A stretch of 40,386 nt of DNA from a virus: positions 1 through 40,386 of IMG/VR virus record IMGVR_UViG_3300042922_000291, one strand, 5' to 3'. This document shows, in pieces, positions 26,971 through 32,770 of this stretch (within the stretch, counting starts at the first letter, position 1; the number at the start of each line of letters is the position of its first letter). Under the pieces are notes generated by a model. That model ran no database searches and was not told the DNA's origin. It was given only the letters and a program-made list of their open reading frames with translations. A program made the position numbers and the translations under genes.

Positions 26971-27333
26971 TCATTTAATCGGCCATCCTTTTGGATAATG
27001 CCTCCTAGCTATTCTACATGCTAACAAGTCTTGACACTTATGTATTGAATCACAGAAGTCTCTTTGGTCACTTGGATGTTGTATATCCAGTAATGTAAAC
27101 TCATTCCATGCCGTTATTAAGGCATCCATAACCTTTCCTTCTTGTTCTGTTAATCCATCTTCTCTTGTTATCTCATACGTTTCCGCTGTTCGGCTTTGTA
27201 TGTTTGTTATTTGCTCAGTAGGAATAAACCTTGTACTACTACATTTCGGACAGCTGTGTCCGTCTGCAAATCTCTCTGCATAAGCTTTCTCATAATTACA
27301 GTCCATACACTTTAATGTTAAATACCTACTCAT
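26971..27333 (-). CDS. Zinc-ribbon plus helical-hairpin protein
   Basis: I choose the ATG at 27331-27333 (MSRYLTLKCMDCNYEK), seven bases after AGGAG. The N-terminal ribbon has CMDC and CPKC. The C-terminal ~60 residues form two helices around HPSD (VMDALITAWNEFTLLDI, then DFCDSIHKCQDLLACRIARRHYP). The hairpin recalls the Acb2/Tad1-type hairpin, but the match is by eye only. It overlaps the HNH gene by 8 bp. Confidence 0.65.
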   Translation of the reverse strand: MSRYLTLKCMDCNYEKAYAERFADGHSCPKCSSTRFIPTEQITNIQSRTAETYEITREDGLTEQEGKVMDALITAWNEFTLLDIQHPSDQRDFCDSIHKCQDLLACRIARRHYPKGWPIK

Positions 27334-27712
27334 TATTAATCTCCTGTTCTGCAATAATGTTCATTATAACTTCTCTTGGTATCTCTCCACGTTCAGACAT
27401 CTCATGATGCTCTTCGCATAATGTAATTAAGTTATCATTGTCCAGTCTCTTGTCGAAGTCTTCTTCAAGACTAATAGCATGATGAACTTCTAAATCATTG
27501 TAGTTGTATTGATTCTTTGTATCATATAACTTTCTGATACACACCTGGCATAGATACTTATCACGTTCTTTTATCTCTTCACGCTTCTTCTGCCATGCCT
27601 GAGTCCATCTAAATTTATCTTTATTGTTGCCTTGTTTACTTCGCACCGGCTTCTTACCACAATCATACTTACTATCATGGATCCTCATACAATACTTACA
27701 GCTCTTTAACAT
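27326..27712 (-). CDS. HNH endonuclease adjacent to terminase
   Basis: I choose the ATG at 27710-27712 (MLKSCKYCMRIHDSKYDC) after AGAGG. 128 residues: two zinc-binding pairs (CKYC, CQVC), then the HNH core LEVHHAISLEED and DNLITLCEEHHEMSE. HNH proteins beside terminases are known to be required with TerL for cos cleavage in several phages, the likely role here. Confidence 0.9.
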   Translation of the reverse strand: MLKSCKYCMRIHDSKYDCGKKPVRSKQGNNKDKFRWTQAWQKKREEIKERDKYLCQVCIRKLYDTKNQYNYNDLEVHHAISLEEDFDKRLDNDNLITLCEEHHEMSERGEIPREVIMNIIAEQEINNE

Positions 27713-27731
27713 TGTTATCATCCTCTTATAA

Positions 27732-27914
27732 TCATTCTGATATATCAAGCACTTCACAAAGCTTCTTGACATCTACAATAATTGGATTATCTTTGTCTTT
27801 AATGTTTTGAACAATGTCAATATAATTAGTCTTAACACATGCTCTTACATTTTTTAATGTTCTGCTAGAATTATCTAATCTTTGATACTCTTCCATACTC
27901 ATTGTTACCTGCAT
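27732..27914 (-). CDS. Hypothetical small protein (60 aa)
   Basis: GGAGG lies six bases before the ATG. Starts MQVTMSMEEYQRLDNSSRTL, with a helix then strand pattern (NPIIVDVKKLCEVLDI). The EEY-x-x-L motif recalls small phage DNA-associated proteins. Family not recognised. Confidence 0.6.
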   Translation of the reverse strand: MQVTMSMEEYQRLDNSSRTLKNVRACVKTNYIDIVQNIKDKDNPIIVDVKKLCEVLDISE

Positions 27915-31602: not shown

Positions 31603-32046
31603 CTAAAATGGTATATCCTCATCATCAGCTACATGAAACCCATCTTCACCGTCAAAAGCTTCATTGAAATAGCTTTCTGCGTCTACTGGCTTTCCGTTTG
31701 TCTGCTTTGCTTGCCCTATAAACTCAATCCTGTCTGCTATGACATCAGTTGTGTATCTCTTTTCACCTGTTTGAGTAGTGTAACTTCCTGTATTAATTCT
31801 GCCATGTACAGCGCATTGACTGCCTTTGTTTAAGTAGTTTGCTGCATTCTCAGCTGACTTTCCAAATACAGTAATTCCGATAAAGTCTGCAGTTTGTTTT
31901 CCTTGAGCAGCTGCTTCTTGTTTCTTTTCTTTGTTCATTTCTCTATCTACTGCCAAGTTGAATTTTGCCACAGCCATTCCTGTTGATGGTATGAATTTTA
32001 GTTCTGGATCTCTAGCCAAGCGGCCTATTAAAATTACTGAGTTGAT
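31603..32046 (-). CDS. ssb: Single-strand DNA-binding protein (distal part of interrupted ssb)
   Basis: Reading from ATC at 32044-32046 gives I/M-NSVILIGRLARDPELKFIPS, a standard SSB start, then the OB fold (FIGITVFGKSAENAANYLNKGSQCAVHGRI) and the acidic tip DDEDIPF. No ATG is present: the expected first codon is ATC, eight bases after GGGGG. The next usable start is TTG at 32019, which would lose nine residues and the first strand. The native start 5' of the insertion is at 32594 and now belongs to the HNH ORF. See the findings. Confidence 0.85.
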   Translation of the reverse strand: MNSVILIGRLARDPELKFIPSTGMAVAKFNLAVDREMNKEKKQEAAAQGKQTADFIGITVFGKSAENAANYLNKGSQCAVHGRINTGSYTTQTGEKRYTTDVIADRIEFIGQAKQTNGKPVDAESYFNEAFDGEDGFHVADDEDIPF

Positions 32047-32594
32047 AAGTCATTCCCCCTTTTTAATTGATTTCTTTCTTTCGAATGCAAAGACATATGT
32101 TCACTTAATGTCATTAGTTTTAAATTTTCCTTTCTATTATCATTTCGAATTTTATTTATATGATGAACGCATTCATTGCTTTTTAAATGCCTTCCAATCA
32201 AACATTCCATAATTAAATCATGTTCCATAATATAACCATACGAACTACTTTTAGGATGGTCAGGAAAATAAACCGCAATATATCCATCACTCCTTTTTTT
32301 CTTATGTCCTATGCCTTTTAATTCGCGAGTCTTTGATATTTTTTCTTTTGTTTCAGCAGATAATTTTTTATTTTTATTTGCAAGAATTAATTTTTCTTTG
32401 TGTTCAACGCTTAAAGGCTTTCCAATAATACTTTTAGGACTTGTATGTTGTGGTCTTGGTATTACTCCAATTTCATGTATTTTTTTATGAACATATCCAA
32501 CAGAAACATTTAATTCATCAGCTATCTCTTGCATTGTGTATTTTTCTTGTTCATATAGCCTTTTAATGTCATCTATTAACACAACACTATTCAT
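32034..32594 (-). CDS. HNH homing endonuclease fused to the native ssb start
   Basis: 186 residues. Residues 1-7 (MNSVVLI) equal the SSB N-terminus, with a good ribosome site (AAGGAAGG). From residue 8 the sequence is foreign: an HTH (KRLYEQEKYTMQEIADELNVSVGYV), NUMOD3-type repeats (IGKPLSVEHKEKLILANK, LSAETKEKISK), and an HNH core (SNECVHHINKIRNDNRKENLKLMTLSEH). It ends TAA at 32034-32036, inside the restored ssb start. This is a mobile homing endonuclease inserted at codon 8 of ssb. Confidence 0.88.
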   Translation of the reverse strand: MNSVVLIDDIKRLYEQEKYTMQEIADELNVSVGYVHKKIHEIGVIPRPQHTSPKSIIGKPLSVEHKEKLILANKNKKLSAETKEKISKTRELKGIGHKKKRSDGYIAVYFPDHPKSSSYGYIMEHDLIMECLIGRHLKSNECVHHINKIRNDNRKENLKLMTLSEHMSLHSKERNQLKRGNDLSTQ

Positions 32595-32770
32595 TATTTC
32601 ACCTTCCTTAAATCAACCGCTTTGCATTGCGGATTATCAAATACCACTTTTACTCCATCAGGGAATATTGCAGGTTGCAACAATCTGAACATTTCTGCAT
32701 TCTCCTCATTCATCACTATTGGATACAACGTTTCGTCTTTCATATAAAACATCACTAAACCATCTTTCAT
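32594..32770 (-). CDS. Hypothetical small protein (58 aa)
   Basis: The ATG at 32768-32770 follows GGAGG by seven bases. Reads MKDGLVMFYMKDETLYPIVM, then NEENAEMFRLLQPAIF and ends AVDLRKVK. The stop TAA overlaps the next ATG (TAATG), and the gene feeds translation into the interrupted ssb gene. No family known. Confidence 0.75.
   Translation of the reverse strand: MKDGLVMFYMKDETLYPIVMNEENAEMFRLLQPAIFPDGVKVVFDNPQCKAVDLRKVK

Follow-up and report, generated by a model that had tools for sequence, protein, structure and literature searches.

A phage HNH endonuclease gene that appears to swap translation starts with ssb

The DNA analysed here, a 40,386-bp virus record referred to throughout as the window, carries on its minus strand an HNH endonuclease gene followed by ssb (32594 to 31603), and the 5' end of ssb is present there twice. 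We put at roughly 80% the probability that the upstream gene is an ssb-targeting HNH homing endonuclease whose insertion swaps translation starts, such that the HNH gene would take the start of ssb and ssb would receive that of the donor. An exchange of this kind would offer a selfish gene a route into an important gene without an intron, since it takes the start of the host gene and supplies a spare one.

Two copies of the ssb 5' end

The HNH ORF (32034..32594, minus strand; 186 aa) starts at ATGAATAGTGTTGTGTTAATAG/ATGAC and its protein opens MNSVVLI/DD, where the slash marks the junction; beyond it, ATGACATT represents the HNH protein proper. A sequence-only reading of this DNA had identified these first seven codons as the start of ssb, and comparison with the ssb starts of other loci confirms the assignment. 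Its first 22 nt were set against a collection of 90,710 ATG-started 22-mers drawn from the retrieved loci; all matches of at least 19/22 were ssb starts, the element itself excepted, so the likeness is not due to chance. The best matches reach 21/22 (L013, L044, L053, L055, L058 and L116), and ssb relatives without the HNH gene open alike, for example L002 with ATGAATAGCGTTGTACTTATAGGCCG. The captured piece (32573..32594, minus strand; 22 nt) is thus up to 21/22 identical to HNH-less ssb starts, and the Shine-Dalgarno sequence of the original ssb, AAGGAAGGTG (32600..32609, minus strand), now serves the HNH ORF. Directly upstream, as context, lies a 58-aa ORF (32594..32770, minus strand; PHROG 16626) whose stop overlaps the HNH start (TAATG).

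The downstream ssb frame reads ATC AAC TCA GTA ATT TTA ATA GGC CGC TTG GCT, or (I)NSVILIGRLA, in register with MNSVVLIG, and ends at 31603. The duplication proposed earlier is therefore present, the differences between the copies are largely synonymous as had been noted, and both share the word TTAATAG, found at 32579-32573 and again, 548 bp away, at 32031-32025 (minus strand). One part of that proposal requires correction, namely the interruption of ssb. The second copy carries ATC in place of ATG, 8 nt after the Shine-Dalgarno sequence AAAAAGGGGG (32055..32064, minus strand; within the HNH 3' end, with the same module in relatives) and with an in-frame TGA stop two codons upstream, so that ssb is complete (31603..32046, minus strand; 147 aa). 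Its product matches Pfam SSB (E 7.8e-25) and, over residues 1-147, PHROG 44 (E 4.7e-48), and is 93% identical to the SSB of L002.

Comparison with relatives reveals different origins for the two copies. The first is of the native type, matching L002 at 18/22 positions. The second, beginning with ATCAACTCAGTAATTT (32031..32046, minus strand), is foreign: its first 22 nt match L002 at only 12/22 positions and L005 and L127 at 19/22, and it also resembles L279, an HNH-bearing relative. Beginning at GGCCG, the window ssb and that of L002 are again nearly the same over about 60 bp. A second copy unlike L002 joined to a body like L002 indicates that the imported block comprises the HNH gene together with ~16 nt from the start of the donor ssb, and that both junctions lie at one word of ssb. 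The two window copies align only weakly with each other in a local DNA comparison, as expected if they stem from different ssb lineages; the case accordingly rests on comparison with relatives. This HNH gene comes from a single contig; the genome contigs searched yielded no relative of it, searches with the locus returned no phage DNA match, and a search by way of the 58-aa gene returned no empty-site relative with the window's left flank.

The protein contains an N-terminal HTH, NUMOD3 and HNH_3 (Pfam, E 3.6e-07 for HNH_3), and it matches PHROG 7545 (E 3e-30) from residue 8 on, that is, from just after the captured codons. Conserved columns delimit the catalytic region (32085..32222, minus strand; residues 125-170), with H125, H144, H145, N153, H166 and H170 invariant. 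In an AlphaFold model (mean pLDDT 80) the captured residues 1-6 form a tail before the first helix, a position that would explain why they are tolerated. A PDB fold search with the protein gave HTH-type matches only, none below E 0.05. A second HNH endonuclease gene in the window (27326-27772, minus strand; Pfam HNH), upstream of terminase-like genes, is of the common packaging-associated kind.

Removal of the DNA between the two TTAATAG copies would restore MNSVVLIGRLARD and give an exact in-frame SSB, the outcome expected if an HNH gene resided in a self-splicing intron or an intein-like element. We regard this as very improbable. Rfam detects no group I or group II intron, even at E 10, and the ORF fills nearly the whole 548 bp, in keeping with the earlier remark that there is no room for an intron core. 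The HNH ORF ends in TAA with ssb in another frame, and this stop codon, which leaves no continuous frame, rules out an intein. Moreover, ssb possesses its own Shine-Dalgarno sequence and constrained codons 2-6, both superfluous under splicing, and the same downstream ssb start occurs in HNH-clade relatives without capture. Group I and group II introns and inteins were rejected on these grounds.

An HNH family tied to ssb and recurrent start capture

Relatives of the HNH gene immediately precede ssb in Escherichia HC6, Klebsiella BUCT541, Hafnia yong1, Pasteurella Pmp11 and Providencia PSTNGR2lys. A profile scan found ssb directly downstream in 46/46 full-length HNH relatives examined, a set that includes these five phages and also L230, in which the HNH frame is broken 238 nt before ssb. 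Among the weaker HNH-domain matches of the same scan, ssb adjacency falls to 3/39, the other 36 having no ssb in the locus, and two of the three (L248 and L273) belong to the window's own subclade. Judged by its gene neighbourhoods, this HNH family is dedicated to phage ssb; it spans very distant phages (Pasteurella, Hafnia, Klebsiella, Escherichia and clostridial-type), all of them tied to one replication gene. The L230 gene, a Pasteurellaceae-type HNH copy whose neighbouring ssb is intact, is probably a decaying homing gene.

The window HNH has the sequence attributes of a free-standing homing endonuclease, namely an HNH catalytic motif combined with DNA-binding modules (NUMOD3 and HTH), and a gene that lies in or next to its presumed target and is patchy among close relatives. 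The sequence-only reading would have given up the insertion if relatives carried the HNH ORF upstream of a complete ssb with an ordinary ATG. Many relatives do so, which bears out that objection in part: on the gene orders compared, an HNH gene before a complete, ATG-started ssb is the family's usual arrangement, and start capture is an extra, recurrent trait of some members.

The strict linkage to ssb across very distant phages, the overlap of the HNH and ssb reading frames and the frequent presence of recombination genes nearby could also be taken to mean that the HNH protein is a domesticated SSB partner, a recombination nuclease or regulator of ssb encoded in an operon, whose N-terminal likeness reflects a leader-peptide fusion. 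This is improbable given how patchy the gene is among close relatives: it is found in Pmp11 and is missing from the Pasteurella phages Pmp10, Pm86 and Pmp13 and from L002. The low G+C content of the HNH gene (28% vs 35% for the contig), the HNH_3/NUMOD3 architecture typical of homing enzymes, and the placement of the junctions at one conserved ssb site likewise argue against domestication and favour a homing gene that exchanges starts with ssb.

The Pasteurella phages provide an empty site. In Pmp13, which lacks the HNH gene, 3 nt separate an exonuclease gene from the ssb downstream of it; Pmp11 has a 3-nt gap after its exonuclease gene as well, and there the HNH gene comes next, with ssb behind it. 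The 200 bp before the Pmp11 HNH start and the 200 bp before the Pmp13 ssb are identical at 175/200 positions, and the first 27 nt of the Pmp11 HNH gene (nine codons, MAGVNKVII) match the Pmp13 ssb start at 24/27 positions, compared with 21/27 for Pmp11's own ssb start. These matches indicate that the Pmp11 HNH gene occupies the original ssb start and that the ssb behind it has a different one. The comparison with an HNH-less ssb that had been suggested as a check thus places the insertion at the ssb start, and this empty site displays the same event as had been claimed for the window: an HNH gene inserted into ssb, the ssb start codon and ribosome site now serving that gene, and the 5' end of ssb present twice. 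With isolates of one Pasteurella species that do and do not carry the gene, homing and the target site become directly testable.

Further HNH proteins have ssb-like N-termini, including L221 (MSGSVNKVILV/D), L225 (MAGSVNKVI/G) and L201 (..RGVNKVI/D), a pattern whose background is about 0.6% of other ORFs (roughly 24/3,969). In several lineages the ends of the captured pieces lie no more than about two codons from one point, immediately ahead of the Gly conserved in SSB; this suggests a single conserved target. In a maximum-likelihood tree the window belongs to a nine-member Firmicutes clade (support 100/100) and sits beside L274, in which no capture is seen; the proteobacterial captures fall in another part of the tree (97/86 split). 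We read this separation as start capture having arisen at least twice, with the proviso that the tree's label test did not count uncaptured rows and is compatible with other histories as well. The HNH protein of Providencia PSTNGR2lys (L190), which opens MASKV.., was considered as a further capture and rejected, as its ssb begins MQDMNQCNFTG.., starting inside the HNH end. In that locus ssb was probably annotated from a start (MQFSLAV..) lying too far downstream, and the MQDMNQCNFTG.. frame opens within the HNH 3' end.

Probable AUC and AUU starts of ssb

The ATC at the ssb start position of the window (32044..32046, minus strand) is a probable non-AUG start codon. All six other HNH-clade loci that HNH similarity brought up (L248, L273 and L276-L279) have ATC or ATT at this position. 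A scan for GGAATGACTTATYAAY recovered 26 distinct ssb contexts, in every one of which a G-rich Shine-Dalgarno sequence precedes an ATY that coincides exactly with the Met position, and none of the 86 other matches encodes ssb. In a protein-based ssb sample, drawn with two search patterns of which one is biased towards Ile at position 1, ATC/ATT starts make up 7/74, all seven behind the same kind of module, and ATG starts have diverse leaders. No ATG, GTG or TTG is found within the first 60 codons of ssb in L286, L297, L299, L275, L277 or L409. In Firmicutes phages, ATC/ATT ssb starts are seen behind AAGGNGGAATGACTT, with or without an HNH gene, in L286, L293-L300, L309-L390, L409, L414 and L452. 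The AUU starts of L006, L012 and L015 are ambiguous, since an in-frame GTG lies three codons upstream.

A sequencing error at ATC was rejected because ATC/ATT recurs in the HNH relatives and at many other ssb loci. Frameshifting from an upstream ATG (ATGACTTATY) is unlikely, as L277 and L452 lack that ATG. Another reading is that the allele is a damaged recombinant: ATG at the place of ATC would give the HNH gene a TGA stop and an ATGA overlap as in L030, and the first NTG in the window ssb is the TTG at codon 10. The ATC would then be a loss-of-start mutation, with SSB made poorly, not at all, or from that TTG, and with host SSB substituting. Little probability attaches to this account, because ATC/ATT is conserved in the HNH-clade relatives and in the 26 other contexts, several of them without NTG in 60 codons, because codons 2-6 are still constrained, and because a TTG start would remove the first OB strand. 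Sequence features expected of a genuine non-AUG start are present, namely no usable NTG, a strong Shine-Dalgarno sequence at normal spacing, and conservation. Initiation of SSB at AUC is therefore well supported by comparative evidence, if not proven.

Precedents for such starts exist in bacteria. Clostridia initiate at AUC/AUU at 5-20% of AUG with one leader and 40-100% with another, compared with at most 3% in E. coli (PMC9680021). Judged by SSB, Sedimentibacter and relatives are the closest genomes that bear a name, so a clostridial-type host is likely for the window phage. In S. aureus, ribosome profiling documents AUU/AUA starts of infC, cvfC1 and ccpN that are kept next to extended Shine-Dalgarno sequences (PMC13009471). 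The likeness to the phage genes lies in AUU/AUA combined with strong Shine-Dalgarno pairing; the S. aureus cases, however, are bacterial genes with profiling data, and the AUC/AUU starts of phage ssb are read from sequence (PMC13009471).

For the Firmicutes phages we tentatively offer a joint reading, one that we hold to be somewhat less than an even bet. Many ssb genes would start at AUU or AUC behind the near-identical module AAGGNGGAATGACTT-AUY-AAY, which would travel with, or have been left by, HNH elements that home to ssb; with its start so altered, the allele may be protected against the nuclease, and ssb may be expressed weakly or under its own regulation. That the AUY module constitutes a resistant or regulated allele is speculation. 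In one locus (L282:740-800), an HTH regulator gene is extended at its end by a remnant of an HNH C-terminus (CMKERHEKRRND), and an ATT-started ssb without an HNH gene follows directly; this could be the scar of an element loss that left the module behind, with which it fits.

Gene callers limited to ATG, GTG and TTG are blind to AUU/AUC ssb starts, and their conservation suggests that many phage ssb genes are mis-annotated. In Roseburia phage Shimadzu (L484), a GTG start with homology to other SSB N-termini lies 72 nt upstream of the annotated start of ssb (orf45). The ssb at L022:3508-3810, 85% like that of the window, is frame-shifted after about 80 codons, perhaps through assembly error or as a chimera.

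Proposed mechanism and known systems

We infer that the most likely substrate of the HNH enzyme is an uninterrupted ssb, which it would cut or nick near codons 6-9, in the first OB-fold strand (..VIL[VI]/G), and that repair from an element-bearing phage would copy in the HNH gene together with the donor's ssb start. With its left junction inside the recipient ssb, the HNH gene would have acquired the recipient's ribosome site and ATG, and its protein would open with the first seven codons of that ssb. On the right, a homologous junction at the same TTAATAGG would have put the Shine-Dalgarno sequence, the AUC and the first ~16 nt of the donor at the head of ssb. Both would remain expressed, HNH from the strong native AUG and SSB from the overlapping AUC start; translational coupling is plausible, given that the two reading frames overlap (by 13 nt in the window).

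The closest precedent in position is T4 SegG. As described in two reports (PMC535899, PMC2988022), its gene lies directly upstream of gene 32 (ssb), is absent in relatives and is co-transferred with gene 32, and its reading frame overlaps the gene 32 control sequence. The resemblance is one of position: SegG is a GIY-YIG enzyme, whereas that of the window is HNH_3 only, and no ssb start capture is described for SegG. MobE in nrdA of Aeromonas phage Aeh1, and MobA with T4 gene 60, share with the window an intron-less HNH homing gene in coding sequence (PMC2988022). There, however, nrdA is split into two polypeptides that reassemble, while the window has a complete ssb whose start the HNH gene takes. 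The sequence-only reading had likened the insertion to gene splitting of the MobE type; this likeness fails, because a complete 147-aa SSB frame lies downstream with its own Shine-Dalgarno sequence and AUC/AUU start, its 5' end coming from the donor. The ShiLan element is likewise a non-splicing HNH insertion inside a phage gene, here a methylase, and differs in that, as PMC11855218 presents it, the HNH frame runs out of frame from its own GTG, the methylase gene reads through it and no starts are exchanged. In the parts of these sources available, none of SegG, MobE/nrdA and ShiLan is described as taking the start of its host gene and handing over another. A literature search that covered few subscription papers found no report of this HNH family or of AUU/AUC starts in phage ssb.

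Lactococcus phage F12 has a NUMOD4-HNH gene just upstream of ssb, an HNH of another type for which start capture is not described (PMC6105707). A similar pair is found in L015 (3366-4441), where an HNH gene of this other type (NUMOD4) directly precedes an ssb whose start position reads ATT, which suggests that unrelated HNH genes have targeted ssb more than once.

Tandem repeats of 27 bp occupy both ends of the contig (window 1-213 and 39625-40386) and encode SAATNTGYQ/DQ repeats on the minus strand. They probably belong to a single gene that the contig ends interrupt, as would happen if a circular or permuted genome had been broken within the repeat.
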